Source: Malania oleifera (lineage: Eukaryota > Streptophyta > Magnoliopsida > Santalales > Ximeniaceae). From it: 64,000 nucleotides of DNA. The position numbers were made by a program, and so were the translations under genes. The DNA is taken from the NCBI RefSeq assembly GCF_029873635.1, contig NC_080426.1, positions 50,358,093 through 50,422,092 of the forward strand. The letters are read 5' to 3'. Positions 434-54,712 of this stretch are shown in pieces (position 1 is the stretch's first letter; each line of letters begins with the position of its first letter). The notes beneath the pieces were generated by a model that was not told where the DNA came from, made no database searches, and was given only the letters and a program-made list of their open reading frames with translations.

Positions 434-1159
434 AAACAATCTTTGTATCACAAGAAATGTTCAATAAATAAGCTTACACAAAGATGTCTAGTCTCAAGCA
501 TTTCAATTAGCAGAATAGTTCAAGCATGTGAGTATCAAATGAAGTATAAGCTCGGTTTGCAAAAGATGCGTAATCTTTGTATTCAGCAAATAATATATGA
601 GTGAAAGAATATTGCAACAAAGATCGCTATCACACAAACAAATATCTCTTCGAATATTTTACGGGATAAAAGCGCAATAGATATTTGGAAGTGTTTGAAA
701 GGTTTTTGCAACCAAAAACAAATATGATCTTCTTAAGATCTTGCAATAAAAATGCAAGCTCAAAAGATCAAACAAGGTCTTCTTAGGATAGGCTTATTAG
801 CAAAACCCCCCTAAGAATCCTTAGGTTTAGCTCTCAATGAAAATAAATCAATCAAATATGAATGGGAGAGCAAACCTATTAAAGTAAAAACACTCAATCA
901 ACTTACAAGTGATGTAGGCAACAATAGAAGGCAAGTATAAGTGATTTTTGTAAGAAAATGAGTAGTATAGGGTTTTTATTTTTCAGAGAATTCTTCCCTA
1001 ATCAAGGTGGCTAATCACCCCTAATTTTCTCAAATGATCTCATATATATAGACATGAGAGAAAATATGACCGTTGGGGACCAATTGGGTATTATTAGAAA
1101 AGTTTAATGATGTTTAAAATATTTTAACCCTGTTTAAAAAATATTAACTGCTGTAAAAA

Positions 1160-1625
1160 TCAGGGCAACCCGAGAGGTCCGGTCGACCAGAACAAGTTCG
1201 GTCAACCAAGTTTCAAATGGTTCGGTCGACTAGGGGAATATTGAACTGAGGTCTTGGTCGACCAGGAGAGGTGATTTCCCAATTTTTTGAGTTTCAGTCG
1301 ACCAGGGCATTTTGAACTGCTTGGTTCGGTCGACTAGATCGCTGGGAATTCTCCCGAGGACCCTTCGGTCGACCAAGTAGTTGGAGAACAAATATTCTCG
1401 GTCGACCAGATGGTCAACTATTGACCCAGGAGGGTTTCGGTCGACCAGGGCCTTTTGAACTACCAGTTTCGGTCGACCAGTTGGTCAAACTTTTGACCCT
1501 AGGGAGTTTCGGTCGACCAGGGCCTTTTGAACTACCTTCGCTGGTCGACCAGGTGGTCAAAATTTGACCCAAGGTGTCTCGGTCGACTAGGCCAAAATGA
1601 ACTGGATTGGCTGGTCGACCGAAAG
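1160..1625. repeat. Array of about 14 GGTCGACC-type palindromes
   Basis: Fourteen copies of a CGGTCGACCAG-like unit occur in about 450 bp at irregular 17-45 bp spacing. Some are decayed (GGTCAACC, GGTCGACT). Between several of them are looser inverted pairs of GGTCAA and TTGACC. Part of the array is also a longer repeat containing GGGCCTTTTGAACTACC (near 1450 and 1520). Read on the minus strand, the array lies about 110-570 bp upstream of a TATATATA run at 1043-1050. CG-to-TG/CA variants are what decay of methylated CpG would leave. Confidence 0.9.
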
Positions 1626-2337
1626 TGCATTGTGTGTGCATTTTGATTCTGTATTGATGCAAACAAGCCCTATTCAAGTCCCTAACAAATATATGTGAAA
1701 GTGTGTGTGTCCTAGGGTCACTTGGGGTCCAATTTTAAGACACCGAAAAAGTCCGGTGTTACACCCTAGGGTCTTTCTAAGGTCCTTTCTCATTCATGGT
1801 TTGGTTTAAGCTTACGTAGTAAATCATACATGTGATGTGTGTGAGCTTATTACAAACCAAATACCTACTTACTATTACAAACCAATATAAATATATTACA
1901 ATGCTGAATTATAAATTGGTCTTCAAGCTTTTCTTGCTTTGTACACATCTTGATCTTACTACCCTTAGTTCCTGCACAAAACCTCAAACGCTCATTAGAT
2001 ACAATGAGTATTTGTCATCATCAAAACCGGGAGTGACCAATAAGGTCAACAATTATCTTGACACAAAGATCAAATATTTTACAAACAAATTTCAAATATC
2101 TCTTGTGATTTATCTTGAGAAAAATATTTTGAGATATTTGTTAGCATATTGAAGATCTTTGTTGCTATATCTTTTTATCTTGATACAAAGATCAAATAAA
2201 GTTTTGCAAATCATTTTTAAATATCTCTTGTGGTTTATATTGAGAAATATTATTTGTTGAGATATTTGAAGTGTGCTTGTGATCTTTGTTGGTGCATTGT
2301 GATTAAAATATTATTTTGACACAAAGATCCTATCATT

Positions 2338-2770
2338 TACACTCTCATGCACTGATTGCTATATTTGCATAAATATTTGAGAGTAGACACTTAGACTACA
2401 TCGAGCTTATCAAATCCTATCTTTTGGTAGTGTATTGATTATACTGTGCGTAACTGGGTACATATCTGCTTTACACGAAAGCACAATCACTGTACCATTT
2501 ATTGTATTTCAAATCTATTGTATATCCAGGCACGGGCCTGAAGAAGGAGACTAGCCCTGGAATAGTCCCGGATTGGCTTAGACCCGGTTAGGAAAGTTAG
2601 GTGCGTCGTCCTGTTAAGGCATGTAGGTTGAGGTCAGCCCTACTAATTAACCTGGTTAAGGTTGAGGTCAACCCTGTGTTAATTTGACTTGGTTGTTTAG
2701 GTGTCGCTCCACCCGTTAAGTGAGCCTATAGTGGTAATCCTTGTGCTTGTTGGCCAAGGTGGGGACGTAG
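2338..2770. repeat. Right arm of long inverted repeat
   Basis: This is the partner of the arm at 1-433. The spacer of about 1.9 kb holds the palindrome array and AT-rich sequence. Confidence 0.85.
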
Positions 2771-3009
2771 GCAATTTGGCCGAACCTCGATAACATTTCT
2801 AGGTGTCGTCTCTTTTATTGCTTTATTGTGCATGTCTGGTTAAACGTTTATTGCAGTTTAAATTCCATTGTATATTTACATTGATTTATTTTACATACAC
2901 TAGATTGACCTTAAGCTTGTGTAATACTGTTGTTAGTGGTTTGACCTAAGGCAATAAATTTTAAAATACCAATTCACCCCCCCCCCTCTTGGGATTGCAC
3001 CAAAGCTAA

Positions 3010-3095
3010 CAGTACAACATCTAGGTCTCCTCCGCCCATACTGGATGGCCCTGCATCATCACCTCCAGCCTGTGCACTACTACTCCCTGAATCCA
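3010..3095 (-). pseudogene. Ty3-gypsy gag start, truncated
   Basis: Read on the minus strand from the ATG at about 3095, the first 28 codons are rich in Ser, Gly and Asp (MDSGSSSAQAGG...). This resembles the opening of gag in plant gypsy elements and the gag start at 60748 in this window (MDAGGDND...). The reading frame is cut at 3010 by the neighbouring fold-back element. Only the N-terminus remains. Confidence 0.5.
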
Positions 3096-3450
3096 TCCTG
3101 CAAAGGATATAAAACTAGTTTAGAACTCTATCATCATAACTCACTATCACACCCAGCATACCAAAATCCACAAAATATTCTGCTATACACATTTCTCTAT
3201 CCCCATTTAAAATTCAATCCTACCACACAGAAACACTATCCGACGATAGTATCTATGGTTTTCGGAAGTCGTCACCCTAGGAAAAATACAAAAACAACCA
3301 CGGAACTCTTGCCTCCAAGTCGCAAGACAGAACCCTAAATTTTAATCTCATCCTCTAACAACATCTTACTCAAACCTCATCTATATCCATTCATATACTT
3401 CGGTATTGTATTCCACTGTTTACTAAAGTCTACAGAACCTAGCAAACCTA
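3096..3450 (-). mobile_element. Ty3-gypsy 5' leader
   Basis: This is untranslated leader between the primer site and the gag ATG of a minus-strand element. It shares a block around 3260-3310 (GTCACCCTAGGAAAAA and the AACAACCACG stretch) with the leader of a second minus-strand element at about 51270-51310. That supports one family. Confidence 0.6.
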
Positions 3451-3463
3451 GGCTCTGATACCA
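3451..3463 (-). other. Primer-binding site (tRNA-iMet type)
   Basis: On the minus strand this reads TGGTATCAGAGCC, the usual plant LTR-retrotransposon site complementary to the 3' end of initiator tRNA-Met. It lies three bases inside the LTR edge at 3467, which fixes the element's orientation as minus. Confidence 0.85.
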
Positions 3464-5648
3464 AATTATAACGCCCCGATTTTGAAATCGATTTTTTTTA
3501 CATTACATATATCCACATATCGGCCACGTCAAACACTGATATCAAAGTACATGCTCGACCTGCAAGTGGGTACCGGGTGTATATCATACACACATACATA
3601 ATCCTTATAGCGGAAGTCATTTCATATTCATATATACATCCCATAGCAAATACATATACTAAAGTACAAAACCATCCATAAATACAAGTCTAATACAAAA
3701 TCTCTAGGGAAACCAAACCTCCCTAGCTCAAAATGCTCACCCTGACTACTCAGGGTATCTGCTCCCCTCTATCTCAGAGCTTTATCACTAGATCTATCTT
3801 AGTTTCCTAAAATATTTAATTGATTAGGTGAGACACATATCAGTAACACGGAATAAATTATCTACAGTGTGTGGCAATATGAGATTTATTATATCATAAC
3901 ATATATGCATACTAGTGTTAGTGTTTTCTGGGAAAATATACCTTTTCACATTTATTATCATATAGATATACAAGAAAAGCTTTTAAAAGCTTTTACTTTC
4001 ATTTCCAAAATCATTCAATATAACCCAAATTTACCAGCAAAACTCCTGAGAATAGGAAAGCTTACCCACCCATACAAGCAACTTCCCTCTGCCTTGATAT
4101 CATTTGCAGCCTAGCCTGATTAACTTGGGTTCAACTACAATTGATACTTATCAAAGCACTCACCTTACTCAGCAAGCCCTCAGGCAGTGTGTTTTACTTT
4201 GCTTTAATTATTTATTAACTCACGCTATTCGTTTATCATTTCATTATTGTTCACATTTTCATGTTCATTTCCATTTCCATATCTAGCTCATGAGTGTCGT
4301 CATATTGAAGTATCTATGTCTGTACTCATAGCTGCCCTGAGAATCACACTCCACGTCATGCTTCCCCCCATGAATAGGATTATGCAGCCCGAAGGCTGGA
4401 CCTAACTGCTGCTGGCCGACCCGATTAGGTCAAATGTCACCATATATCTTATGTCTGTAGTACGACTGGCTGGCCAAAGCCCTGATCCAAACTCAAGGGG
4501 CAAACAACGCTGCTATACAGCTCAACCTACTGTCAAGCTACATGCTCCACGAGCTACATGCTCCAAGAGCCCGTATGGTTGCACTGCTCCACTAGCAACG
4601 GTACCATGCTCTCAATATCATAACTCATCATTAGGGTTTCCATATTCATTCATCAAGGTTTTCACTACCACATACCAACAATCATTATGTGGTATTTCAT
4701 CCATCACATGTCTGTATTCCCCATGCGGAATTCCACATTGCATTTCTCACAATTTAGTATTCATATTGCAGAATTAATGGTGCAATATTCATATTTCACA
4801 TACTTACATTTCCCATAATCATATTTCACATTTCATATTGCAGAATTTTCAAAATCAGTATTCTCAACATATTTTATCATTTCAATGATACTTCCTCAGT
4901 TCATGATTCATTTCACCACATTCTATCATATAAATATCTCTTCTCACAAATATTCAGTATTTCTCAAAACACGTTCACATATTTCACATTTCTTCATTTT
5001 CTCAGAAAATATATTTCCCGCATATTTCACTTTCATCATTTCTCCACAATTCAATTCTCATATCATAACACATTTCAATATTACATATTTCATAGGGTAA
5101 TTCGTTTAACCCAGTTTAAACATTTTTCAACATAATTCATATGCCACAAAAATTTCATCTAATATTTATATCATAAATAAATTTCAGGTAAAATATCATA
5201 TACCATTTTCACGTATTTCTTAATCCATAATTTATGTAAAAATACTGATATAATTTATTCCCCTTACCTGACTTACTGAAATGCTCACAATTTAATCCAA
5301 ACCTACGCTCATAGTGTTCGCAGCTCAACACCCTGAAATTTATATTTTCCCCACAAAACACCAGCATTATTCCATCTAGTACTTTTCTTCAGTTCAGAAA
5401 TACCCAATAACCTATAAAACTTAAAATAACCAACTTACCCTAATTTTGGGATGGTTCCCAAATGCTCCAAATCAAAATTTTGATCTAGCAATATTGTAGA
5501 GAATCTTCCCAATAGTAACATAGCAGTTTTTGATCGTCAAACCGGTGAGAATCGAAGTCGAAATCGAAGAGAGAAGATGAGGGAGACGAATTTTTAGAGA
5601 GAGAGGGAGTTTGCATGCATTTTGTTCACCAGAAATGTGATTTGGGCA

Positions 5649-5657
5649 TATTTATAG
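5649..5657 (-). promoter_or_regulatory. Likely TATA box of gypsy LTR
   Basis: The minus strand reads CTATAAATA, just downstream of the TCGTCGACGA array and upstream of a CT-rich tract. This is the arrangement expected of a U3 promoter. There are no transcript data. Confidence 0.5.
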
Positions 5658-5674
5658 AGCATTGTCCATGTGGC

Positions 5675-5845
5675 CTCGTCGACGAGCCACAACCCCTCAT
5701 CGACGAGTCTAAGAAGGGAGTTCGTCGACGAACTCATACCTTTCGTCGACGAACTTTAGGTCCTAAAATCACCCTCTTAGTATCTCTTCGTCGACGAGAC
5801 ATATGTCCTCGTCGACGTGCTTAAGGAGGATACTCGTCGATGAAT
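5675..5845. repeat. Array of seven TCGTCGACGA-type palindromes
   Basis: Cores lie at about 5675, 5696, 5720, 5742, 5786, 5808 and 5833. The longest perfect palindrome is GTTCGTCGACGAAC at 5720-5733. Variants (CTCATCGACGAG, TCGTCGATGA) fit CpG decay. The array begins about 20 bp upstream of the minus-strand TATA box. Confidence 0.9.
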
Positions 5846-5947
5846 ATTCTGCACCCATCAATGAGACCCCGCTGAGCTCCCCTTGAGAAATCTTTTTTCT
5901 CTCTTTTCCTTTATTATTTAATTGCAATAATTCTCCGGGTCTCTACG

Positions 5948-6346
5948 GAACCGGCAAGCCGAGAGGAGGGAGAGAGGACCGGAGAGCGAGAGAGAGAGAG
6001 AGAGACCTGGGGAAGCTTAGGAGAGAGAGAGACACGTGAGGGTGTGATAAAGAAAATCCTAGGAGAGAGAAAATGTGAGTTAAAATGAAAAAATATAATA
6101 AGATTCTAACTTATAAGCCTTAGCCCCGCAAGAAACCATTGACCGTTTGGTCACTTACCAAACCATATTTCCCGTGATCACACATAGAAACTCTCAGTAG
6201 TTTAAAACCGTCGATGGTTTTCTTGAGCTCCCTGAAACCGTCGACAATTTGGTCCTATGCCAAACCTTTCTCCCTCCTTTATTTTTCTTTCTCTTTTTAT
6301 TTTATTTTATTTTCTTTTTCTTTTCTTGGTTCGGGTTCCTACCAAA
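5948..6346 (-). mobile_element. Fragment of a second gypsy-type LTR
   Basis: Right of the LTR edge at 5947 is a purine-rich tract (GAGA repeats, 5958-6070), then a possible minus-strand TATA element near 6091-6101. Next come AAAACCGTCGATGGTTTT at 6204 and GAAACCGTCGAC at 6234. A pyrimidine-rich end GGGTTCCTACCA follows. This matches the terminal organisation of the LTR piece at 53552-54712. Its other end is missing. Confidence 0.45.
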
Positions 6347-6570
6347 TAATCACACAAAAATATTTATAAATCTACAGTGGAAAATAAATAAAATAAATGT
6401 TTTCATATTTTATTACAAGAATATATATATATATATATATATATTGCAATAAAGAAAACAATATAAACTTGTTTACAAGCATAGTCTTACTAAATTATTA
6501 TATTTTTAACACAAATTTTATTACGCTTGGAATTTCTACTTATGATGCCCCATTTAATTACGAAAACATG
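6343..6570 (+). repeat. Direct repeat bracketing the AT-rich region, left copy
   Basis: This stretch runs from CAAATAATC, through AAAATATTTATAAATCTA and a run of AT repeats, to CATTTAATTACG. It recurs at 10543-10720 in the same order, with indels. The pair could be decayed ends of one 4.3 kb element or an old segmental duplication. Confidence 0.6.
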
Positions 6571-7039
6571 GTTAGCTGTGCTTAGTATAAGGTAGTTGAT
6601 CTCCTACCGTATACATTTTTCATTCCTCTTAAAATTCAAACTTTGAGACTTTCAAGCTAAGGACTTGTTCTCGGTTGTTAAAAAAATGCGTAGCTTTAAA
6701 AAGAACTTTTCATTAAGACAAATAGAAAATATGTAGTTTCATGAAATTTTTTAGAAAGAAAAAACTTCTTACCTAAATTATGGCAAACTAAAATCTTGTT
6801 TAATTGTTGAAGAAAATATTTTATGTTTTCAAAATTTTGAAATAATTATAGAAATGTACTTTGTTTTTCCTTTTTTTTTTTCCTAAGGTTTATGAAGGAA
6901 ATTTGTAAAACAATAAAAAAAAAAAAGAAAATAACTTGCTACACAAGTTTGAAGACTAAATAATGTGACAATTTATAATTATTTTAAAAGCCAAAAGTTA
7001 AAATTAAAAATTAAAAGTAAAGCTTCTTTTGTAATGACC

Positions 7040-7600
7040 ACGAAACATTTTATTTAGAATTACAATTAATGAATAGCATAGTATAAAGATGAATGAAATC
7101 ATAAGTTAGTGTTGAAATCATTTTAGTTCATTTATTTTTAATTGGTGCAATTGAAGATCCGAACTTACTAATTTTAAATAATTACATTTATCATTCAAAT
7201 TAAGTTCAATCAATTAATGAAACTTGTCAAAATATACATAAAAATTGACCTAACATTACCCTTTAATATATTTCTTTAATAATTTTATTTCACTTCTAAC
7301 ATGATCCATTCTATTGTATAAATATTGGGTTAATTATTATAAGTCTGCCTTAAATTTTTTTTTAAATAATAAGAAAAAGAATTTTCAATCATGAAGTGAT
7401 AATTTAAAATATGTAAATTTAATAAATATAATTTTAAATTAATTGTACTACCTAAAAGCATAAGGCTTAAAGTGATTTTTATTATTTCACTCTTTTAAAA
7501 TTAAGAAAATATATTTTCAAATTCTAACTAAACCCACAGTTGAGATTAGTTCTTAAGATTTTGAAATGACGTAAATCATGACTGTACTACTTAAAAGTGG
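7040..7600 (+). repeat. Direct repeat A1 (~0.5 kb)
   Basis: Similar to 8990-9535 throughout. Shared blocks include GGTGCAATTGAAGATC, TTGACCTAACATTACCC and AATATTGGGTTAATTA. There is no coding potential. Confidence 0.75.
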
Positions 7601-8179: not shown

Positions 8180-8222
8180 AATTATAGAATTAATTTTCAT
8201 TTATATTATTTGAAAATATAGA

Positions 8223-8259
<37 letters not shown>

Positions 8260-8952: not shown

Positions 8953-8985
8953 ATGCCTCGTGCAAAGTGCGGTCAGTTTTACTAG
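8953..8985 (+). mobile_element. Possible Helitron 3' terminus
   Basis: CTCGTGCAAAGTGCGG is followed about 10 bases later by CTAG before a T. Plant Helitrons end in a short hairpin of CCCGTGC..GCACGGG type and CTRR, inserted before T. The stem here is imperfect, and no 5' TC end or Rep/helicase coding sequence was found. Confidence 0.4.
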
Positions 8986-8989
8986 TTGA

Positions 8990-14300: not shown

Positions 14301-17300
14301 ATAACAGCACAAAACAAACACTAGGATTTATGTGGTTTGTTTTTGAAGCCTATATTTATGCACGAGGAGAGAATTTCAATATGAATTAGATGTAGTTACA
14401 GTGAAGATTAGAATCACACAATGCTCAATGCAAGCCTAGATAGACCCAACTTCATAGAGATGAAAGAAAATGTCCAAACCCTATAAACATAACAAATATA
14501 TATGATCTGCTATTTAGAAGATGGATGGGCAAATCGGATATGTAATGAGAATGTTTTAAAAGGTACAAGTGTAAGGCAAGGCGTTTTAATTCCTGAGAGG
14601 CAAGGCATAAGCCTTAAGGTGTTGAGTATCTTGACATGTAAGTTCTTTTGATAATTTTATTTTTAGACAATGTGCAAATAAATTACTTATTTTTAAAAAT
14701 GTAGAAACAAATTAAAATAAAATTACAAATAAAATGTAAATAGAATCAAATATAACTTGTAAACTACTTGTTGGCCATCCCAAAAAGTACTAACTTGAAT
14801 TCATTAAAATAAATCATGCCAAGAAATAGCTATCTCATTGCAAAGTTCAAATTATTTTCTAGATCTAAGATGCAAATCCATATTATTTTTGAAAGATTAA
14901 GGTTCAAGAGGTTTAGAAATCAACTCATATTACGACGTTCCTTTTATATAAACAAGCAGTTAAAATTTTCTAGCCAAATTTAACTTGAGATTCTCGCACT
15001 CAAAATGCGTAAGCCTCAACTGAAAAAGGTGTGCCTTTTGTACAAATGCATAAGCCTCATTATGTAATGCGATAGCCTTTTTGGGATTTGATATTTTATA
15101 TTGAGCCTCAATGCATTTTAGGAATGCCTTATCTTGAGGTGAGCCTCGATTGAGCCTTTTAAAACATTGGTCAAACTGGTATAGTCAAGACGATTGGATT
15201 GGATGAACCAAAAACTGAGCAAGTCACCAGTTCAATTCCCAGTCTGGCTTCAAAACATTGCTTTCTCTAGCATTTTTTTCATTTGTACTACTTAGTCTCA
15301 ATCACATTAAATATCTTTGTTCAATTACTCTTCTGTTGTTCTCAAATTATTTTCTGTATCCTTCCCCATTATTGCTTTTTGGGTTATTAATGTAATTTGA
15401 GAGTGAAACTTGCTAGGTATGTACTTCAGTATTAGCCTTCAAAATGAGGAGTTGATCCAAGGAAATGGACAAAAGATGATAGATACCGAAACGTTTAATT
15501 TGATTTGATGCATTAACTCTGTGTGCGCGCTAAATAAACAATCATTTGGATTGCTTTTTGCAACACAATAATCTGTTGGGATAACAAATTCCAGCCTGAA
15601 AACTACAGAGTTTGGAGATTGCTTGCAAGTTGCATCATGCATAGTTGTCAAATTGGATTTGGATCACGAAGCAAAATAATTTTGTGAATCAAGAATTGAG
15701 GATTCAATCAAATTGTAAGATTCAACGCAATTTCTAAAAATATTTTGCACGATAAATGTATAAATATAAAGCAAAAAAAATTAAAAATGAAATATATTAA
15801 TGATAAATGATTGTGTACCCTAATATATAGACATAAACATTTATGTATGGATGAAAATGTATACTATTTATTGTGAAGTTGAAGAAGTAAAAGTAACTCA
15901 CTTTTGAAATGTCAAAACAGTACAATTTCTCCATATCTAAACACTTTTAGCTTCAAAATAAACTATTCTTGAGGAGAATCAAACAAACAGAGACTTAATG
16001 GAATTGTCAAACCCTATAGGAAAAAAATTAGGAAACTAGGTAGGGTCCTGTTTACTTGTGGAAATTTTTTTCCATTTTTTGATTTTAGTTTTCCAAGGAA
16101 TTATAAAAATTTCAGCTCATTTTTTTGTTTTCCATGATTCATATTAAAAAGTGAAAAAATAAAGATTTTTCTAGTTGTGCAAAACAATTTTCCGTTTTTT
16201 ATTTTTAGATTTCAAAATGATTGCAAAAAAGATAAATAGGTTTTCAATTTTCCAAAAATTATGTTTGGTAGTATTTGGGATAATGGATTTTGGGGCTTGG
16301 ATTTGGATTTGCTTGGATTTTGAAGAATCTCAATACAGTTGTATGCCATTTTGAGTCATTATCCAGGAAATCAAAGTTCATTCCATGTTCCAAAATGCTA
16401 AGAAATAAAAAATCTAAAAAATAATTAAAAAATGTTTTCCAACTTTGCTATTTAACTTTAGGGAATTGGAAAACAAATAGGAAAGTTGGAAAACAAGGTG
16501 ACATTTTTGTTATTATTTGAAAAATTAGAAATGGAAAAAAAAAACTATTTTCTCAAGTAAATAGTGACAAAAGTTTTTTTTTTTAATACAAATGTTGTGA
16601 AACTGAAAATTTAACTAAATTTTTTTGTAAATGGAAAACTAAAATAGACATGAGAACTGATTTCAATAACTAAATGGGCCCAAAAATTTTGTAAGTTTAA
16701 AAGAGAGAGAAAAGTAGAAAGATTGTCTATTTTAAGATTTTGAAGGCCACCGGAACAGTTTTTGAAGACTTTTTATAATAGTAAGTGGTGAATTTTGGGC
16801 TTTTAAATAGTTGGACTTGATTGTAAAGTGGAAACCAACTGGATATGTTGGATTTGGGTTGTATGTGAATGCTTGCAGAACTGCAAATCATAAAATTCAA
16901 ACTGTGAGTTGTAAGAATCATAAGATTTGAATGGTGAACTGTGAGAATCGTAAGATTTGAATCAAGAACTGTGAGATTAAAGGTCCATTCTTGCTTATTT
17001 CAGTTCACCTACTAGATTCAAATTGGTAGGCTAGTGAATTGAATCATATTGTATGATTTGAATCAAGAATCTTACAATTTGACAACTATGGTGTCCAGAA
17101 ATAAATTAGTAAAGATGGAATTGCATATTGAACTGTCAAAGTTGAAAATCTAGACAAATGTGTGTCTGAAATAGAAAATGATTAAAGCATTACACATGAT
17201 TTTTTTGAATTGAATTTATTTATTTTTATTTTTTATTTCTTGAAGTCATCTGGCCCTCCTTTAGCCTGTAATTTTTTTTTCTTCTCTCTTTATACACTTT

Positions 17301-17906
17301 TTTTTTGTTATTTAAGAAAATAATATTGAATCTAGTGGTATTTAATCTCTCTCTCTTTCTCTCTCTCTATCTATATGTGTGTGTGTGCGCATGTGTGTGT
17401 TGCTGATATTAAATCTGGCCAATGGAGGACACTTTTTATTATAGTTAATAGGATGAAAGGAATATAATGAGAACTGTTAATCATATTTGGTGATCCTGAT
17501 CTTAATTGAGTTGTGAATGTGGTTGTGCGATCCAGATTGTGTTTCTGTGAGGTGACATTGGTACATTACAAAGTTGTGAGGTGGCCTTCACAGATTTTTA
17601 TATAATGTCCAAATGAACAATATAATAATCTTGTTGCTATTTTACTTTTCCTGTTTTATTTTTTTGGAGCTTCCAATTAGTAAAGATGGAATTGCATATT
17701 GAACTGTCAAAGTTGAAAATCTAGACAAATGTGTCTGAAATAGAAAATGATTAAAGCATTACACATGATTTTTTTGAATTGAATTTTTTTTTTTTTAATT
17801 TCTTGAAGTCATCTGGCCCTCCTTTAGCTTGTAATTTTTTTTTCTTCTCTCTTTATACACTTTTTTTGTTATTGAAGAAAATAATATTGAATCTAATGGT
17901 ATTTAA

Positions 17907-17937
<31 letters not shown>

Positions 17938-20900
17938 TTATATGCGTGTGCGTGTGTGTGTGTATTGCTGATATTAAATCTGGCCAGTGGAGGACAATTT
18001 TTATTATAGTTAATAGGATGAAAGGAATATAATGAGAACTGTCAATCATATTTGGTGATCCTGATCTTAATTGAGTTGTGAATGAGGTTGTGCGATCCAG
18101 ATTATGTTTCTGTGAGGTGACATTGGTGCATTACAAAGTCGTGAGGTGGCCTTCACAGATTTTTAGATAATGTCCAAATGAACAATATAATAATCTTGTT
18201 GCTGTTTTACTTTTCCTTTTTTTTTTTTTTTTAGAGCTTCCAATTAGTTTTGTACTTGTTGCTTTTACTCATCCTTTGGTGTCCAGCTGTTAAATGCAAT
18301 TTCACATTACTTGTATTATCAAATAGCATCATCCTTCTTGCTTAAGCTGTGGGATGGCCTCCCTTTTTTTTAATAAAAAAGAAGATATATTAAGAGAGGA
18401 AGAGAATACAAACAGTACAGGACAAGAAATCCTCAGAAATGTGAACTTAAAAATAGAGATTGAAAATAAAACAAACCAAATGTACTGTCCACCATCCCAA
18501 AAAAGACCTTACAAATGCTACCTAAGAAACCCCTTTTCATTCCCTTCCTATCATAGTTATAAAGCACTGAAAATTAGCTAATTTCGCTGCCCCTTTAGCC
18601 TTACTTCTACCACAATCCAAACAGGCTTCCTTTCCCTCTGGGTCAGCTAACCACAAACCCTTTTCATCTAGCAACTGTTGAAAAAGACCCAGGGGCAACT
18701 CCCTCCATTTTGCTCTCTGTTTTCCAGCACCCTTTTTTGGGGCCCCGTACATGACAACCTTTCTAGTCAGACGGTTAAACTGCTAAGAGCCATCACATGT
18801 AGTGAAATGTTTCAGTTAGTTTTTCTGGTGAATATGCTTAAGATGTTGAGGGAGACAAATACAACCATTGTAGCACCATATGGGTTCTAATTTTAATTTT
18901 TTTTGCAGGTTTATTCACTTGAAGATGGTCCTGTTCATGCTGTTTGGAGAAATATGGGAATTCCAGTCACGGTTATTCAAACCATTGAAAACGGGAATGC
19001 TACTGTAGATTGGCTAAGGTGTGTACTATGTATGCTATGTTAATTTTGCAAGATTATGAAACCTCATGATTAAAATTTTTCTGATAGTATAAAAAAAGAG
19101 TTACAAAAAACAACCTATTAGTTTAGCAAGATCCGACAAGTGACAACAGGTTTGTTCCATCATTTTGGGAATTACATCTTATGTTCTTGTGGTCCTCTCA
19201 TGACACATCAGCTGCCATCTGTGGTCTCCCTCATCTCAATCAAGGCTCACTTCTCTCAAGTGAACTGTTTGGTTTTAAGCCTACGATTTTTAAATTTTCA
19301 GGATTTATGTTGCATACAAAGTTCTTAATTTGTCATGCTACTTAGTTTATGGTTCAATTATTTCTTCTGAATTGGTTTTCCATGCAATATGCCACCCAAA
19401 TGATGTCAATGGCTGTATTGTTTATGCATAGTTTATATGTACAAACAAATTAAGTGCTTTAAGCTATTTGATATGTGCGTGGTACCTACAGCTGCTCTCT
19501 TTGGCTTATAATGAATGGGCTTTATTTTGTTTATAGAAATCAACATGTTGTGATTATCTCTAATTAAGGTATGTACTTTGGCAGCTATGATGGCATACTT
19601 GTAAACTCTCTTGAAGCCCGGGGTGTCTGTTTTCGGTAAGCTTTACCAATTTGTCTATTTATTACTTTAAATTAACTGTGCTTGCAACTGTTCTCATTTT
19701 CCTTTACTTTGCATTCTGTCTTTCACATTAACTGATCTCTGAAGAGAGGTTTCAAGACTTCTGGTATGTACTCTTGGATGGCAGTGTAGTTGACTTCTTG
19801 ATTAAATCCTTGCACCTTTTCATGCAACAGTTTGAATTTGGTGTACTACAGAACTAGTGGTTTTCTTCGTAGTTGGCATGAATTTAGTTATCTTCTTGTC
19901 TATGGTTTCTGTGAAGCTTATCTCTTTGACCATTTATCTTTATTCTAACATATTATTCTGTCTCCCAAATATATGGCAAGTTATTTTAGATGATATATAC
20001 ATTAAAGTATCAAATGTTTTATATATTTATATGCAACTTTCTCCATAAACATGTAGTGGGGAGCCAGGAGGTAGTGCAGGTGACATGGGCACACATCAGA
20101 AACAACAACAAACCAAGCCCTATGTCCCACTTGGTGGGCTTGGCCACATGACTCCTTTCTGCCAAATTACCCAACCATGGGAAATTTCTTTTGACAATTT
20201 GAGGGCTATTAAATCCTTACTCATTATATTATTCCAAGTTATTTTAGGTTTACCCATACCTTTCTATTGCCACTAACAATAACTAGCTCATTCCTCCTTA
20301 CTAGTACACTATTTGGCCTGCATTGCAAATGCTCAAATGACGCACCTTCCTTGTCTTCTATAAGTGTTATGCATAACTTGCTGAAAACATGGACACCCAT
20401 ATTGTAGCTAAATGAAAATATTATTGAAAAAATATTGTAGATGGTAAATTTACAATAAAAACTTTTATGGAGGAGTTGTTGGTCGAACGACTCAATAAAA
20501 TTATGTAAAAGTAGAAAAGGCATGGACCAATCTTTTAAAATTGATTTATTATGCTTTATGTCGGAGAAAATGAAAATAAAAATAGAAAATTAAATATGAT
20601 GATAAAATAATCTAATAGCAAATAAATAAAATACTCTTAATGGACTAATTGTGATTGTGGACCAGTTGTTGATCTCACTTCCTTAGGGCAATTCGTGACG
20701 CATAGGGGAGTTATCTACTCAAATACTACAAAACTTCAATAGTACATTGCTCAACTATTCACATCTGCGCTCTTGCACAAAGGAGACAAGAGTCCTAGCA
20801 CCCAACACCTTTCTTTGCCATATTGTAGTAAAGCATGTCATACCCTTGGCAATATATTATCAAACTAACATGTAAAAAAAAAATGAGTAGAAGACAATCT

Positions 20901-45675: not shown

Positions 45676-47572
45676 TGTAACAACCCCAAAAAAGATAATA
45701 TGCATGGAAGTGTAAAGAAAAGAAAAAAATATTATTATTAAAAAAATTGAGTAATAAATTAATTAAATAATATAATATAAGAATATTATATATATATATA
45801 ATAAAGGATATATGAGAATGAAATCATCCTCATCATTCAATCTGAAATTTCATATTGAATCAAAGCAGATTAAAGCAACGCCCCCCCCCCCCTTTTCGTC
45901 TCTCTCTCTCTCCTCAAGTTCTCTCTCTTCAATTTCTCTCTATCTCTCCGTCGAATTAAAAAACAAACACCATTTATGGGTCCCAGCTCCGCTCCTGAAC
46001 ATTTTAACCGAAGTGGATTCGTCGTTGGGATGTCATAGGCACCACTCAACGACTAAGGTAAGGGGAATAGATTATGTCAGGTTTTATATTAAAAAAAATA
46101 TTCCTAATTAAATTTGAGTATGTGAATTTAATTAGATTTGTATTATTTAAAATATGCCTGATTTAAATTGAGTATGTGAAATTAATTATATCTATGTTTA
46201 GATTTTATTTTATAATATGTCTGAGTTAAATTAAACTGCAAGGATTTGGTTATATCAGATTTTTGTGAATATTTTGGAATTAAATTAAACTGTAGGGATT
46301 TGGCTATATCAGATTTTTGTGAATATTTTGGAATTAAGTTAAACTGCAAGGATTTGATTATACCAGATATTGGGGAATAATTTGGAATTAAATTAAACTG
46401 TAGGGATTTGAGTATAAAGGGTTTTCTTGGAATATAATGGAATTAAATTAAACAAGTGAAATTAATCATATTCTTGTTTTCAGCAAAATATATTTTTCCA
46501 GGATAATTATTATATTATGATTTATCAATCAAATTGTGTGGCATGAGGATAATTATTATTGTATGATTAAACATGATGGTTTTTATATAGTTATGAAATG
46601 ACAGTTTAGATGACTTTATGCCGAGTTCAGACAACTTTATGTTAAGTTCAGACGAATTATGCCGAGTTATGAAATGACAGTTTTATATAGAGATATGATA
46701 TGACAAATTTTATATAGAATTGTGAACATGTCAGATTTTATACAGACTTGTGAAAATGAGATCATGTTACAAATTTATTATATGAATTGTATTATATGGT
46801 AGTAGAACCCTGATGGACTAGTTATGATTGAGAACACAATACCGTAGCTAGTATTACATGTAGTGCGGCCACACTATCAGGAAAGTGTAGGAATATGGCA
46901 GTCTATTGGCCCTTGAAGTGATGTATTGCAAGAGTGGGTTACCCACTGGATCTGAACCAGCTTGGGTGGGCAATCGTACTTTAGACATAACAGTTTCGAC
47001 TTAGCCTAATAGGTCAGTCATGGCTAAGTCCAGCCTTTGGGTCGCACAACCCAATCATGGGGGATTATACATGATGTTATATGATAGTTCCATCAGGAAA
47101 ATTCTTTTATGTATATATACGTAAATTTATGAAAACATGATTATCTATTAAGTTAAAGTATGTTTGAGTAGAAAATATGTATTTAAAATTATATAAGTGT
47201 GAGTTATAGTATATAAATGCCTTTTTCAATTAAAGTTAAATTAATGGTTATGTTTTACTTATATAAAAACTCATCTGCCACACACTAATGATAATTTATT
47301 CCATCTTACTGAGAGGTATCTCACCCTATTATTATCTAATATTTTTAAAATGTCATGAGGAGCATAATAGTAATCAGAGTAGCGCAATGGAAGCGTGAGT
47401 GGGATAGAAGGTTTTATTTAGAATAGATTTTTATTAAATTATGTTTTATGTAATTAGAATTTTAGGGGTGCTAATTGTGATATTAGAAATGATATTGTTA
47501 TATTGGGATTATTAGTACTCTAGTAATTTGTATTGGAGGTCTTCCCCTGTATGAAATATTCAGGTCACTACA
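45676..47572 (+). mobile_element. Ty3-gypsy 5' LTR (plus strand)
   Basis: An LTR of about 1.9 kb starts TGTAACAACCCC and ends GGTCACTACA, followed by a primer-site-like stretch (TGGTATTAGAG) and a second, better one at 47621 (TTGGTATCAAAGCC). A TATA-rich run at about 45787-45806 and a CT-rich leader (45885-45945) follow the short U3. It also contains the block around 46960-47070 (GGCTAAGTCCAGCC and the GTCGCACAACCCAATCATGG run) that is conserved in inverted form in the minus-strand LTRs. It interrupts the copia remnant. Confidence 0.75.
46227..46440 (+). repeat. 54-bp minisatellite, 4 copies, inside LTR
   Basis: AAACTG anchors lie at 46233, 46287, 46341 and 46395, exactly 54 bp apart. Each unit reads like AAACTGYARGGATTTG followed by TATATCAGATTTTTGTGAAT. 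Confidence 0.9.
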
Positions 47573-50155
47573 GGTGGTATTAGAGAATTTTAAATGAAAT
47601 TTTATGGGTCGCTATAGTTGGTATCAAAGCCTAGGAAATAGGTTCTGTAGGCTCTAGGGATGATTATTACTAGAGTATAGGTATGAAGTAGGATGAGGAT
47701 AGGAATGGGTAGGCTATGTGTTGTAAGAGTGATCGGGTATAGGATGCATAATGGAGTAAAATACAACATGTAAATTGGAATTTTGGAGTTTTGTCTCGTA
47801 GCTGAAAGCAAAAATTCATCGAGGGTTTTCTATGATTTTTCTGAAACAGTCAACAGTTCCAAAAAAGTCACGGTAAACTATTGACATTTTTCTCTTAGAA
47901 TGTTGCACTATGATCTTGTCTTGTGTAAATAGTCACTACAAGGGATGAGCTACCATTTGCAATATTGGAATATGTGAAATAGAATTTTGTACATTTTTTG
48001 AATGTGCACCCCTTTGCACATTAGAGTGTACTTCTAGTTCTCTGTGGTTTCTTATGATTTAGTGCACGTGGATTTGAGAGCAACTGAAAGAATGTTACTT
48101 ATCCTCGGATTTAGATGCTTAGAAATCCTAGGGGATTCTTTAATGGTGAAATCCTTGGGGATATTGATTATCTTAAGGTTTTATGAAGAGTTAGAGTTCT
48201 TTGGTATATGTTATTCTCTCTCGTGTTCCTTGTGCTTAAAGAAAATATTCAATCTTTCTATATTTCCATAACTTAGTCATGGGTCTTTAGATCACTTTCT
48301 AAGGAGAGCATAGGGTCAAAATTCAATTTCGATCTGCAATAAAAATGTCACGAAAGTAAAGTGTAGATTTTGTTCGAACAAAATAGGAAAAGACAATATT
48401 TGTACAGCCCATGAGTCAAGCATCCAATGAATTTAGAATTTCAAAGAGTGAGTATCTTTTTAATTGGTTAAAGAAAATGAGGCAAAAATAATGGGATAAA
48501 TTCAAATTAAATGGGGCCACACACAAAAGGATATGAGAATAATTAATTCAGGTGAGTGTGAGAAGTTCTTGCAATAATAAATCATATTACTAGCCCCTAT
48601 AAATGCATGCAACACCCAAGGGAATATCAACATGTAAAAGAGACTGCGATGCATAAGGTGTCTTAAGACTCCTCCTATGATTAGTCGGACAGTCATCTCA
48701 AATTTGGAAGTTACAATTCTTATATTTGTTTAATAAGATAATCTAGTATATTAAGTTGATAAGCTAAGGACAAATTTAGTTGGAAACCATCAAAGTTCTT
48801 TAATGTATGGAATTAGAATTCAAATAAACTAGCGCATATATATAGTATGGAAGCGAAACTTCCACAAAATAGTGTCAGATTGAAAGAGAACCCTTCAATT
48901 TGCAAGTGAAAAAGTTTGGATAGGGTATTTTGTTTGCTTGGAGGAGAAAACCCAGATTTGCAGCTAATGAAGTTAGATTCCCTTATTTGGTGGTTAGATG
49001 GATTTGGGAATGGTTGTCTTTGCTTTTGAAAATTTAAGAAAAGTACTCATTACAAAAAGTTAGCGAGATAAAGATTTGGTTGGGAATAAAAGAAAATTAG
49101 AATGGTAAGCTTATAGAGTTGGGTTTACAAATGAATAACAAACGTTCTTACAAGAGTCGTAGGTGATTTTGGGTTTGGATAAGAGGTGTGTAGTTGTGGC
49201 TTAATTTGCAAACGGTCATCCTGAGGTTGGAAGGAGGTCATATCCGGTTGTTCAAGATTTGGTGAGCAATGTGGAAAATTCAGTGGTTCTAAATGGGTAT
49301 CGTTTTATACTGAAGCATTGCTAGTTAGAAGGGAAGCCTTCCTTTTGGGTTCATTCAAAAAAGGTTAATCAGTGAGAAAAGGTGGTTGAGGAAGTTGCTA
49401 TTGAAATTGTTGCACCACTGCATTTTCAACCCACAACATGTTGAGTTAGTTGAAGAAGAAAAATAGTTGTGGTCTTTGTTATTCATCTCTTATGTTTGAG
49501 GTTGAATTCTTTCTGATAGTAGAAAAATAATGCAGTTTGTTATCAAGAGATTATTATTAACTTCCTAATGTTAATGGTATATTCAGTTATTTATTTATGG
49601 TGATTTCATTGGGGGCAAATCTTCAGAATTCTAGGATACCTTTGCTTAGGAAGCAAGTTTTAGGTTATTTAGGAAATTGATATTTTTGTTTAATTGAGTT
49701 TCTTAATTTAGTTTCCTATCTTCCAAGTATAGGTCTATGAAGGTCCGCATACATTAGTTTCGAGGGATGGTAATTGAGAATCAAAGTTGTTGGATATTGA
49801 TCTTGTATCATTGTATGTAGGAATATTGCCCTGTCTTGCAGTTATGTTTTTGTACTTGGGGTTTCCACAAATTTTGTGGAGGTGATGTAGCATAAAGGAA
49901 GTCTAGGATGCACTAGTCTTGGTAAGTTTTCTCATATTTCTTTAAATCCATAGTTTTGAAATGAAGCAATTATTATGGAGGTTATGGAGGTTCATCATTT
50001 CCTTTTGTTTCATAAGTTGAATTGGAAGTCGATGATAAGGTCTCGGTTAAGAGTCATTTTGCAGATCAACCAATTGTACTAGGAAAATATTTGACAACTT
50101 TTGTTTAAGTTTTGGAGGTCACTTAACTTGGGTTTGGCCTATTGTATAAGGCTTC
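47573..50155 (+). mobile_element. Gypsy leader and unrecognised interior
   Basis: The leader from 47621 matches in layout the one at 60341: primer site, then AGCCTAGG..GGTTCTGTAGGCT, then GGGTAGGCT and a TTTTCTATGATTTTTCTGA block with a decayed AACAGTCAACAGTT palindrome. Beyond about 48300 I could not read gag or pol, only broken frames, so the element may be non-autonomous or heavily decayed. Confidence 0.45.
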
Positions 50156-51255
50156 TATAATGCCCCAAACCCGAAACTAGGGTCCAGAGTGTTATTTGAA
50201 AAACACCTCTCATACCACCTCATGACACCCCGAACCTGCTAAGTGGGGCACAGGTGCCACGTGTTCCATTTACCTGAACCTGGCTCTATATCAATTACGC
50301 AGTGAAAATAACAACATATTCTCAATAAAATATACTAGAATTTCTATACCTACATATATCTTAAAAACATAATCCAACATCTAGTATTCCCAAATATTCA
50401 CAACACTGAAAACATAAATATATTATAACCCCAAAATTAAAACCGTAGTTTATACCCTCTATTTCAATAGTGCTAACACACCCTTGAGCTCTCTAAGCTC
50501 AATCCCACGAAGGTCCTAAAAAGATGAAATTCAACTATCGGGTGGGACACATCTCAGTAAGGATGGAATACATTAAGCAGTGTGTGGCCAACATGAGATT
50601 TGTGTACAATATACATACATATTCATTATTCTCAAATGAAACCATAATTATAAAATCATTCTCTATTCCTAGTCAAACACATGTAAGGTATTTTACCAAT
50701 GAGACTTACCAAGGATTGGGGTGATTACTTGCCCATACAAGTAACACCCTTCTGCTATGATACTTTAAGCAACCTATGGTCACATTTGAAGCATATTAGG
50801 GCACTTACCTTACTCAGCAAGCCCTCAAGTGATTAGTTTATCTTGTACTCACACATTCATACAAAATTTTACCAGCAGAAGTTCCCGAGAATAGGGAAGA
50901 TTACCTGCTATACAAGTAGCTTTCCTCTACCCTAATACGTTATGCAGTCCATAGTTACATCTAATATCTATCAAGGCATTCGCCTTTCTCAGCAAGCCCT
51001 CGGGCGAAGAGTATACCCTGTCCTAAATACATGTAATAATACCATATATAATACATTTCTTTCTTTACTCTGTATCCGTTATTTCCGTATCATTTATTAC
51101 ATTCATATTCATATTCCATATTTCTTATAATCTGTTTCCATATCATTCTTGTCCATATCATGTTCTGTGATCTCCATATCATTCTTGTCCATATCATTTC
51201 TATTTGCCAATTTCCTTATAATCCATTTCCATGTTTCCATATCTTTCTTTACTAT
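50156..51255 (-). mobile_element. Gypsy LTR, first part (split by insertion)
   Basis: It starts TATAATGCCCC (mutated TG) and carries the blocks of this LTR group: GGGTGGGACACATCTCAGTAA, AGTGTGTGGCCAACATGAG, CTCAGCAAGCCCTC (twice) and CCCGAGAATAGGGAA. It resumes at 53552 after the inserted gypsy end. The inner break near 51255 is approximate. Confidence 0.6.
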
Positions 51256-51424
51256 GATTTTCTTGAAATAGTCACCCCAGGAAAAACACAGAAACAACCA
51301 CGAAATCCTGTATCTAGATCACAAAACAAAACTTCAAATATTTTTTTTTTCCTATATTCTGGTATTGTTTCCCGTTGCACTCTAGAGTCTACAGAACCTA
51401 GCAACCTAGACTCTGATACCAAAT
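51256..51424 (-). mobile_element. Gypsy leader and primer-binding site
   Basis: The minus strand from 51424 shows TGGTATCAGAG (51421-51411) and then a leader sharing GTCACCCCAGGAAAAA and AACAACCACG with 3260-3310. The element is truncated soon after, with no gag start left. Confidence 0.65.
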
Positions 51425-53211
51425 TGTAACGATCTCAAAAATTATATCATTTTTCATTTTTTTTATATATCAATATATATATTACTTAAATATCCCTACT
51501 ATAGACTCTCAGGCCTCAAATAGGCACTGAAGTATTTCTCTAGATAGTGGGCACACCAATGCAACGGAAAACATAAATCACATAACCACAAATGTATATA
51601 CAATACCAGAATCCAGTAATTTTCCATGTTATATTTACATATACTAGTATCGTTTTCCCAAAACTCACCAACTTACCCTAAGCACAGAGCAACCAAGGGA
51701 CTCTCTAACCACGAGCCTGATCTGCTCGCCTAGTTGGCTCACCTGAAAAATGTTAAAATGATGGGATAAGTCGACGCTCAATAAGTGGAAATATGCTATT
51801 ACTAGTGTGTGACGACCAAGTTGCATATTGATAATAATAACATTTGAAACTGTAAAGCTGGTAAATCGGTATAAATAAATTTTACATTAATCATAGCTTA
51901 AAATATAACTATATCATCTGAACTTTCTATCTTTTGTACTGCTAATATCATACTATATACATTAAATGCTATAAAACTGTATACACATATATAACTATGC
52001 TTTTCCTTGGAAATCTGTATGTCATGATTTGACCCCTCATGACAGGGTTGTGTGGCCCGTAGGAGAGACTTAACGCTAGTCGACCCTCCAGGTAAGTCAC
52101 TATACTCTACACTACCTCAGTCCGGCCAAACTACAACCACTCCTAAGCACGGAACTAGAACTACTACCTCGTCAAACCAGGCCCCTCAACCCAACTAGGG
52201 AGCGCCATCCTCTCCGAGCATGGTTTGACTGTACCCACACACTATCTGAGATATGTGGTTGCACTCTATTCTGTATGTAGCAACGGTACCGTGCTCTCTA
52301 GACTGTCAAGTCTATAATATCTCATAAGGGATTTGATACTATATAAATATATATACTATAATTATCTTTGCTGTTTTATCATGTTTCCAAATTAACCATA
52401 ACATTATAATTCTGTACTGTAAATACTGTAATATCTAAACAACATGTCTGTAGCATCTTGATGCTATAACTATATATTATGTCTGTATAAACTGTCTGTA
52501 TAAACTGAGTGTTATGGCATTAGGAAAACATGACATTTTGTAAATACTGTATATACTGATTTGAGTAAACATCTGTGTACATGTATATACATCTGTCTGT
52601 GTAAATATTTGAATATATACTGATATGAATAAAATTGTAGATGTACATATGCTCGTATATACTATATAACATGATATTTTGAGAAAAAACTACATAAGAT
52701 TCTATATCAGATAATATCTACTCAAGCCACACATTCTTTAATACTCTTATTCTATAAAACTACATAATAACTGGTATACATGCATATAAAATCTCTAATA
52801 ATATAAGTAAAATCTCCTAACATAGCATATTTCTCTTACATAGTTTATGAAAAGCCCTCACTGAAATCTGACACTACATCCGCAGGGTTCTTCATTCAAC
52901 ACCCTGAAAACGACATCCCCCAGAACAAAACATCAATGTTTTCCTACATACAACATTTCCTATAACTATAGGGAAAACATATTGTGAATAAAACACCTTA
53001 CCCTGAATTTGGGATGAATTTCAAACCAGTTCCACCGATGATCTGATTCGGCAGACTTGCAGAGAACTTCGCCAGGAGCGTCGTGGTGGTTCTAGATCGT
53101 CGATCCGATGAGAGACGGGGCCAGGATCGAAGAGAGAAGGAGAGGGGTGCATTTTAGAGAGAGAGAAAGGAAAGATTTGCGCTAAATTTCTATCAAAAAT
53201 ACGAGTTTTAG

Positions 53212-53221
53212 AAATTTATAG
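53212..53221 (-). promoter_or_regulatory. Likely TATA box of gypsy LTR
   Basis: Minus strand CTATAAATTT, with the palindrome array beginning 9 bp upstream and a CT-rich leader downstream. Confidence 0.5.
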
Positions 53222-53229
53222 AGCTAGAT

Positions 53230-53470
53230 TCGTCGACGAGACATGTCATCTCATCGACGAGTCCTTAAGGAATTTTGTCAACGAACTTCCTTCCTCATCA
53301 ATGAATTTCAGACTGCTCCAAGAACCTCTCTTGGTACTTTCTCGTTGACAAAACCTGTCCTCGTCGATGAGCTCCTCTTATATCCTCGTCGACGAATCCC
53401 TTGTGTTCGTCGACGAGGACCCTTCTAATTTTTTCGAGTTATTACATCCAAAATGCAATGTCGTCGATGA
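53230..53470. repeat. Array of nine TCGTCGACGA-type palindromes
   Basis: Cores lie at about 53230, 53250, 53275, 53294, 53341, 53360, 53385, 53406 and 53461. They range from perfect (TCGTCGACGA) to decayed (CATCAATGAA, GTCAACGAA, CGTTGACAAA). The decay is mainly CG to CA/TG. Confidence 0.9.
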
Positions 53471-53551
53471 AGTCTGCTACCTCCTTCTATTTCGCTTTCC
53501 ATTTCCCTCCCTCTTTATTATTTAAATACCATTATTTTTCGGGTCATTACA

Positions 53552-54712
53552 ACCCTTTCCAGCACAATCAACCTTCCCATCTCCACACTATATCTAAGAC
53601 GTGTGGGTGCACTAGTTCCACCAAATATATCCGCAACAGTATTGTGCCCATTTTCCAATTTGCCAGTTTCTAGTTTACCAGAGTTCTCAAACCATACATT
53701 GTCATTTAACAATCCCAAACACATGCATAATAAACCATATCCCATTTTGATTATCAATACATTTCCAGTATTTCTTGCATCACGTACATATATCATAGTT
53801 CAACACAGAAATTTCCTTTTACTTATGCCACACAATTTAACAACATATAATCATACGTTTACTGAAAATAAGTCAACCATAATCATCGTTAATACACTAA
53901 AAATATACATTTAATTTCTTACATAATTAACTAGAAATTTTTCCATTTTATCTTTCCTTTTTCGCAAATATAACTAGTAATACAGCCCTAAGCTCAGAAA
54001 TTTACCATTTAAACAGTTGGCTTTTCATAACTCACATAAAAATCATATACATATATCAATAAATTTTCCATTTTTACTGATTAATTTCATAAAACCCTGA
54101 TTTAATATATTCCCCTTACCTTCTTGAACTACGCCGGTAGGGACCCCGAAACGATACCTGTGGCACCCACCCAAATCCTAATTAAAAAACCCTAATTTAT
54201 CAACTTAAATCCCCAAACAACACTCATTAAATACTTCCTAAGCTTCATATACCTCAATCTAACAATAAACTCTAAAATAACTCACTTACCCTGATTTTGG
54301 GATGGTACCCCAAAATCTCAAATCAACGATCTGCTCTAGTAACCTTACAGAGAATGATCTCATGAACCTCATGGTGGTTCTGGATTATCAAAATAGACCT
54401 TAATGGAGTAAGGATCGAAGAAATACGAGGGAAGAACCGTAGGGTTTCGTGAGAGGGAGAGAAAGAAAGAAAATTTTGATTTCATATAAGAAACACTTGC
54501 AGGACTTTTCTTTATATCACCTCTGCAAAGGTTTTCTTAGCCTTTCAGAAAATCGTCGCCGATTTTCTCTTTGACTGACCCTATTTTTACCGTTTAACCC
54601 ATTACTGACTCGTGGTAACTCCACAAAACCGTCGCTGGTCTTCTCTTCATTCCAGAAAATCGCCGTCGATTTTCTTTTCTCTCTCTCTCTCTCTTTTTCC
54701 CGAGTCTCTACA
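53552..54712 (-). mobile_element. Gypsy LTR, second part
   Basis: Continuation of the LTR begun at 50156, ending GAGTCTCTACA. It has a purine-rich tract (54415-54475), a minus-strand GATATAAA at 54518-54511, and three palindromes of a different type: GAAAATCGTCGCCGATTTTC (54548), AAAACCGTCGCTGGTC (54625) and GAAAATCGCCGTCGATTTTC (54655). Confidence 0.6.

Follow-up and report, generated by a model that had tools for sequence, protein, structure and literature searches.

Palindrome arrays upstream of TATA boxes in several long terminal repeat (LTR) elements of one plant genomic stretch raise the question of whether this promoter design evolved repeatedly or is shared between elements. The stretch, hereafter the window, comprises 64,000 nucleotides of the Malania oleifera genome (C10:50358093-50422092 of a 1.494-Gb assembly), and all genome counts given below refer to this one genome. 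A first-pass annotation had described five places on the minus strand, numbered here as loci 1 to 5, where an array of short palindromes is followed by a TATA box. This order is present as described in all five (Table 1). Repeated evolution had been proposed for the five cases, but sequence matches link loci 2, 4 and 5 to one another, and locus 3 is connected with them through a further LTR. What appears to be new is that a TCGTCGACGA array occurs with the same spacing and the same 14-bp motif in its central gap in both Ty3/gypsy and Ty1/copia LTRs.

Downstream of the leader, loci 2 and 5 share 79% identity over 90 bp. Loci 2 and 4 share 65% over a 305-bp stretch that takes in the array and 82% over 33 bp where the LTR starts, and for loci 4 and 5 the value is 87% over 30 bp. 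The link to locus 3 is the C-type LTR L033, which is 73% identical to locus 3 over 106 bp and 84% identical to locus 2 over 51 bp at the LTR start. Five independent origins are ruled out by this relatedness. All four of these loci are LTRs of the Ty3/gypsy type. Descent of all five from one ancestral sequence thus holds for loci 2-5, which form one related LTR group, and fails for locus 1, which gave no match to loci 2-5 in the sequence comparison and belongs to a separate superfamily (Ty1/copia). In L020, a relative of locus 1, a word resembling a primer-binding site at 491(-) is followed by a copia gag domain (PF14223, E 2.2e-6), at a score of 27.7 bits that is barely above the cut-off of 27. 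LTR-end signatures which we take to be diagnostic suggest that locus 1 may belong to the Sirevirus genus, its motif being the other basis; the lineage labels Tekay/Del (for the gypsy group), Tork and Sirevirus are likewise used as we presume them to apply.

Exact TCGTCGACGA sites occur 132,361 times genome-wide against 1,383 for the same word read backwards, the control used for exact word counts, and GGTCGACC, the palindrome of locus 1, occurs 128,541 times against 6,493. The motifs of loci 3 and 5 are also real genome-wide (ACCGTCGACGGT, 2,868 versus 43; AAAATCGNCGNCGATTTT, 456 versus 0). The backwards words contain no CpG, so part of these contrasts reflects composition. GTCGAC-centred palindromes of 8 bp exceed chance in the window, with 17 copies, every one of them in locus 1, 2 or 4, against 0.64 under a first-order Markov model. 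In a random sample of 20 stretches of 10 kb (200 kb; C1-C8 and C10), for which the Markov comparison allows for CpG composition, the most enriched 8-bp palindromes that are not AT-rich were CGTCGACG (188-fold) and GGTCGACC (57-fold), followed by CGGTACCG (26-fold, 6 copies) and CCGATCGG (13-fold, 5 copies). The first 100 exact TCGTCGACGA matches listed, spanning C1:93,412-1,168,708, form 44 clusters; since the exact sites number as many as given above, the genome probably holds tens of thousands of TCGTCGACGA arrays.

These 44 clusters and 14 arrays from the window and the random sample make up a set of 58 regions. With palindromes masked, single linkage by blastn placed 48 of them in a main group and six in two groups of three, leaving four singles. 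In two members of the main group, the array is preceded at about 0.5 kb, in the same orientation, by an integrase SH3 domain of gypsy type (PF24626), one adjoining the array LTR L015 (L015:9611-9970(-), 1.3e-22) and one beside the array LTR L060 (L070:1739-2128(+), 2.8e-20). One group of three (L043, L057 and L058) was assigned to Ty1/copia because the piece upstream of L058 holds an RVT_2 domain (PF07727, 1.6e-61), about 0.7 kb before the array and on the same strand. No Pfam match was obtained for the short RNase H-like pieces in L058 and L043 or for a single piece from L022. A third TCGTCGACGA family comprises L023, L030 and L059, and the singles include L028 and L049. An earlier, looser grouping had put L035, a relative of locus 2, in a separate family; the later comparison of sites and spacers leaves it out.

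When sites were called in 57 regions, all seeded by exact sites, with up to 2 mismatches to TCGTCGACGA, 436 sites were obtained, and their spacings proved discontinuous: 19-22 bp (179), 24-25 bp (88), 44-48 bp (56) and others up to 80 bp (37), with none of 23 or 26-30 bp. The complete layout consists of four sites, a gap of 44-51 bp and four further sites (about 21-25-21-46-20-25-20 bp), and is found in full in 21 of the 37 regions of the gypsy group in which the central motif is present. In the window, the spacings read 25-21-45-21-25-21 at locus 2, from the far end towards the TATA box, and 21-25-19-47-20-24-21 at locus 4, with one more site further upstream. Exact TCGTCGACGA pairs 15-45 bp apart number 28,616 genome-wide against 0 for the control. 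Among the first 100 pairs listed, spacings are only 19-21 (52), 24-26 (22) and 43-45 bp (26), the upper end of the long step being cut by the spacing allowed.

The position of the arrays relative to the TATA box, as first described, is also general: TATAAA follows a palindrome within 30 bp 21,029 times genome-wide (backwards control 27). TATAAA pointing at the palindrome was counted 3,304 times (control 83), some of these cases being dyads such as TTTATAAA. Oriented by their best TATA, 42 of the 58 regions have the box at a distance of 9 or 19-21 bp when a single mismatch is allowed. Because this orientation score favoured those very offsets and CT-rich leaders, a count of TATAAA at every site and in both directions is the cleaner test. 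Over 926 site-orientations, counts of exact TATAAA are raised 9 bp (20) and 19-21 bp (10) past a site, and again one or two lattice steps further on, at 30, 40-41 and 54-55 bp. Among the first 100 palindrome-TATAAA matches listed genome-wide, 38 lie at 9 bp, 18 at 19-22 bp and 24 at 30 bp. The GGTCGACC family has TATA distances of 129 bp at locus 1 and of 130, 130 and 137 bp in L020, L022 and L026. The CT-rich leader was confirmed as well, in 30 regions that were picked, blind to CT content, for having an exact TATAAA at a distance of 9 or 19-21 bp: mean C+T is 0.65 against a background of 0.50, and 21 of the 30 exceed the 95th percentile of the background.

A search with the LTR of the L058 family returned at least 41 matches (40 of 3,624 first-look candidates were scored), and 20 copies among the best-scoring of the 41 were compared with the gypsy group. 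The TCGTCGACGA array is present in all 20 copia copies, with 6-9 called sites each; the eight-site lattice is complete in 12 of them, and sites are lost or shifted in the other 8. The 14 bases of the central gap that come directly after the fourth site show an identity of 0.774 between 19 copia and 37 gypsy gaps, against 0.295 for shuffled controls (highest of 30 shuffles, 0.338), while the middle and the right end of the gap are at chance level (0.212 and 0.283). For the same 14 bases, identity is 0.68 in gaps of the third family (L030 and L059) and 0.75 in those of three singles, one of which (L035) is gypsy-like.

The 14-bp motif also served as a blind anchor, placed in 38 of 47 gypsy-group regions and in all 20 copia copies. 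At the lattice positions predicted from it (four for gypsy and eight for copia, best match within 2 bp), the sequence matches TCGTCGACGA in 8.0-8.7 of 10 bases, as compared with 3.0-4.7 at an 11-bp shift. If the 2-bp tolerance is dropped, the neighbouring site alone remains sharp, because lattice steps vary by 1-2 bp. Between gypsy and copia, sites are identical at 0.80 (0.97 at non-CpG columns) and short spacers at 0.33, a value close to chance; the looser grouping had given 0.78 and 0.31. Within gypsy the corresponding values are 0.82 and 0.55. Within copia they are 0.78 and 0.81, spacers being as well kept as sites, so that the contrast between the two emerges only over the longer distance. 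Since gypsy and copia elements share both the spacing and the 14-bp motif, the TCGTCGACGA module is best regarded as common or exchanged, not reinvented. CpG composition alone, considered as a source of the arrays, is ruled out by the lattice and spacer results.

These results support a module of dyad-symmetric, CpG-rich sites upstream of the TATA box, and from its sequence organization we consider it rather probable that the arrays act as enhancers in cis on LTR promoters, with palindromes bound by a dimeric host factor and with homologous gypsy and copia versions. Each palindrome would be the site of a two-fold symmetric DNA-binding protein, the most likely candidate being a transcription factor of the host that recognises the GTCGAC-centred core. 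Several dimers would sit side by side on the fixed lattice, in pairs about 21 bp, or about two helical turns, apart, and would act on the TATA box at a set distance, activating rather than repressing, to start the RNA of the element. The TCGTCGACGA block, with its eight sites, fixed spacing and GAAAATACCGAGAG-like motif beside the fourth site, would form one homologous module, passed between the superfamilies most likely by recombination or template switching; selection would then have kept the sites while the spacers drifted. We give about even chances to the broader proposal that these eight dyad sites on their fixed lattice, together with the central motif, are one mobile enhancer cassette that has been exchanged between the Ty3/gypsy and Ty1/copia elements of one plant lineage. 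Its amplification would have produced over 130,000 exact sites, and elements that are otherwise unrelated would rely on one common DNA-binding protein or compete for it.

Several observations weigh against an enhancer module shared in this way. The gypsy gaps entering the 14-base comparison had been selected by their match to the motif, although the 19 copia gaps had not. Sites were called by motif similarity, which sets a floor of about 0.7 to their identity, and the weight therefore rests on the blind test and on the spacing. Steps of 25 and 46 bp are not whole helical turns. The usual TATA distance is missing in 16 of the 58 regions, and in 11 of the first 100 listed TATA matches the distance is 11-12 bp. 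The palindromes gave no match to a known plant factor, no motif library having been compared. Only 128 of the 436 called sites are exact, despite the seeding of regions by exact sites, which argues against claiming present-day activity. Finally, the RNA of three window arrays folds far better than shuffled sequence (z of -7.4, -6.8 and -7.7), a result that fits a role in hairpin and small interfering RNA (siRNA) formation as well.

Such folding would be expected if the arrays were mainly silencing targets, in which hairpins in the U3 RNA lead to siRNA and then to DNA methylation, the array being seen by the host and not used by the element. The decay of the sites is compatible with this scheme: CpG transitions make up 344 of 429 site mismatches in the 57-region set and 167 of 204 in the copia family, as expected from CG methylation. 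This pattern suggests methylation in the germ line, and the array copies are probably CG-methylated and decaying. In maize, small RNAs are reported to be in excess over Sirevirus palindrome clusters, according to the portion of PMC10760457 used here, which cites Bousios 2016. Nevertheless, any palindrome array should fold strongly in this comparison, because shuffling breaks the palindromes up, and silencing leaves unexplained the lattice kept despite spacer divergence, the set TATA distances and the retention of the lattice in copia copies. We regard silencing as unlikely to be the main role of the arrays, although it may coexist with an enhancer role.

A different binding protein has also to be considered, namely a sequence-specific factor encoded by an element, comparable to VANC, which would bind the arrays and keep the promoter open while other families exploit the site. 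VANC targets in VANDAL transposons, as presented in parts of PMC10398659 and PMC5735166, are likewise arrays of short non-coding motifs that differ by family, and the outer bases of the palindromes do vary by LTR family here, as had been noted at first. VANDAL elements, however, combine an encoded binding protein with family-specific targets, whereas the TCGTCGACGA motif and lattice are common to two superfamilies, and the letters 'palindrom' are absent from the main text of PMC10398659; a factor of this type is improbable in our view. Equally hard to credit are passive, functionless arrays produced by tandem duplication and CpG-rich composition and carried along by LTR amplification, for although locus 1 is a tandem repeat of about 72 bp and related copies inherit their layout by descent, sites survive where the gypsy-copia spacers have diverged, short steps hold at 19-22 and 24-25 bp across families around a central gap of 44-51 bp, and mismatches are mostly CpG transitions.

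Dyad symmetry in a plant LTR promoter is also a property of Tnt1 box I, which sits in the U3 promoter and is likened to the present arrays by description, not by sequence. The sections of Bousios et al. 2010 (PMC2829016) drawn on here name it as a symmetric regulatory sequence. They report that Sirevirus LTRs carry palindromic repeated motifs upstream of the TATA box, 12 of the 13 motifs having a CGG-CCG core, and term them Sirevirus-specific because they are absent from 30 other Ty1/copia elements; gypsy elements are not among the comparison sets in these sections. The motif listed there for Vitis is CGGTCGACCG, that of locus 1, whose array is therefore already known, and the earlier remark that no description existed is wrong in this case. 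Locus 1 has the same palindrome with the CGG-CCG core and 14 sites, where at least 8 copies are called for in Sireviruses (PMC2829016). Sirevirus motifs form a CpG island that a TATA box follows at 37 bp on average; locus 1 has a CpG observed/expected ratio of 0.93 and a TATA distance of 129 bp. Multiple polypurine tracts ahead of the 3' LTR are a further Sirevirus feature, but the internal region of the locus 1 element falls beyond the window.

The TCGTCGACGA arrays resemble the Sirevirus motifs, as far as these sections describe them, in being high-copy, clustered, CpG-dense LTR palindromes upstream of a conserved TATA box. They differ in lacking the CGG-CCG core, their own being TCG...CGA, and in not being restricted to Sireviruses, since they are found on a constant lattice in Ty3/gypsy LTRs and in an apparently different Ty1/copia LTR type. 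The palindrome clusters of maize Sireviruses (PMC5311732, PMC10760457) likewise lie in the LTR cis-region and are linked to small RNAs, but they are copia clusters with a different motif, and the passages of both papers considered here contain no sharing between gypsy and copia; the maize palindrome also occurs in Helitrons (PMC10760457, in part). Gypsy-type arrays and a lattice shared by gypsy and copia were not found in the open-licence literature, covered mostly at title and abstract level. The bare 10-mer brought up no LTR promoter topic among titles and abstract starts of that literature, and a search of it for GTCGAC with LTR gave no match.

In the sections cited, palindromic LTR repeats have so far been reported as a Sirevirus feature (PMC2829016). 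Should one and the same array be functional in both superfamilies, a large share of this plant's mobile DNA may be under the control of a single host factor, and retrotransposon promoters would be swappable as modules. The exact sites and their spacing provide a direct handle on the binding protein and on the effect of methylation, and the arrays represent a large ready-made supply of putative binding sites for the host genome.

At the level of single loci, the first description required some adjustment. The sites are there, but perfect copies are fewer than had been stated, the rest being near-copies. Four of the TATA boxes stand (Table 1) and the one near 6091-6101 is weak. The arrays of loci 2, 4 and 5 are CpG-dense, at the 98.4-99.1 percentile of equally long window stretches, as opposed to only 93.4 and 91.7 for loci 1 and 3; several other stretches of the window exceed the loci in this respect. 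The palindromes of locus 3, only ACCGTCGATGGT and ACCGTCGACAAT, and the near-palindromes of locus 5 are weak on window evidence alone. Sites at locus 1 are spaced by 19, 24 and then alternately about 32 and 40 bp. A word resembling a primer-binding site at 51410-51421, downstream of locus 4, could belong to locus 4 or to locus 5.

Table 1. Positions of the palindrome arrays, their TATA boxes and the LTRs that carry them (window coordinates unless a region is named)
Feature	Position	Strand	Remarks
Locus 1 LTR, Sirevirus-like Ty1/copia	1..2051	-	starts at about 2051 with TGTTGACC...TTTTGATGATGACAAA; end beyond window
Locus 1 array	1180..1621	-	14 GGTCGACC/CGGTCGACCG-type sites, 9 exact GGTCGACC
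Locus 1 TATA box TATATATA	1043..1050	-	129 bp past last palindrome
Locus 2 LTR	3452..5947	-	start at about 5947; presumed extent to primer-binding-site word TGGTATCAGAGC at 3452-3463
Locus 2 array	5676..5843	-	TCGTCGACGA sites, 4 exact (5 exact CGTCGACG)
Locus 2 TATA box TATAAATA	5649..5656	-	19 bp past last palindrome
Locus 3, truncated U3 fragment of related LTR	5949..6342	-	interrupted by locus 2 LTR
Locus 3 sites	6207-6248	-	two, ACCGTCGAYGGT-type, 30 bp apart
Locus 4 LTR	51410..53551	-	start 53551, TGTAATGACCCG; inserted in locus 5 sequence
Locus 4 array	53230..53470	-	TCGTCGACGA sites, 3 exact
Locus 4 TATA box TATAAAT	53214..53220	-	9 bp past last palindrome
Locus 5 array	54548..54674	-	GAAAATCGNCGNCGATTTTC-type near-palindromes, core TCGNCGNCGA; related LTR starting at about 54712
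Locus 5 TATA box TATAAA	54511..54516	-	
ACGGTACCGT in similar context	L014:6271; L019:1856 and 4240; L021:6428; window 52283		

Other short sequences recur in and around the arrays. ACGTGTC or ACGTGGC words, presumably related to the ABRE/G-box, lie between the first and second palindromes of many TCGTCGACGA arrays. Between the palindromes of locus 1 (1180-1621, minus strand) there are inverted TTGACC/GGTCAA pairs, which we take to be W-box-like; many arrays of the 19-21 bp class likewise have GTCAAAGG between their last palindrome and the TATA box. Two CGGTCGACCG-type arrays (L012:4059-4398 and L014:4296-4629) include non-palindromic CGGGCGACCG or CAGGCGACCG sites, possibly as a variant that lost its symmetry. 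The palindrome ACGGTACCGT is enriched and occurs in similar sequence context in 5 of 7 copies checked, singly each time; none of the 7 forms an array. The conserved block past the leader in loci 2 and 5 (5417-5504 and 54267-54355, minus strand) is 79% identical. In locus 5 it contains an inverted repeat of the TTTGGG...CCCAAA kind and AGGGTAAG, which resembles a 5' splice site inside the LTR.

An inverted fragment at 2311-2769 (plus strand) belongs to the same LTR family as 1-456 (81%). The inverted match had suggested a terminal-inverted-repeat element at locus 1, a candidate that was rejected; because L020, L022 and L026 are single-armed, the second arm more likely derives from a different LTR copy, of which it is a fragment. 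Elsewhere in the window, gypsy gag-pol pieces (zinc knuckle, RVP_2 and RT_RNaseH) occupy separate frames at 61535-63529 (plus strand), an open frame at 59008-59499 (minus strand) presumably resembles a LINE reverse transcriptase, and a tandem duplication of about 580 bp at 17104-18248 is 93% identical.

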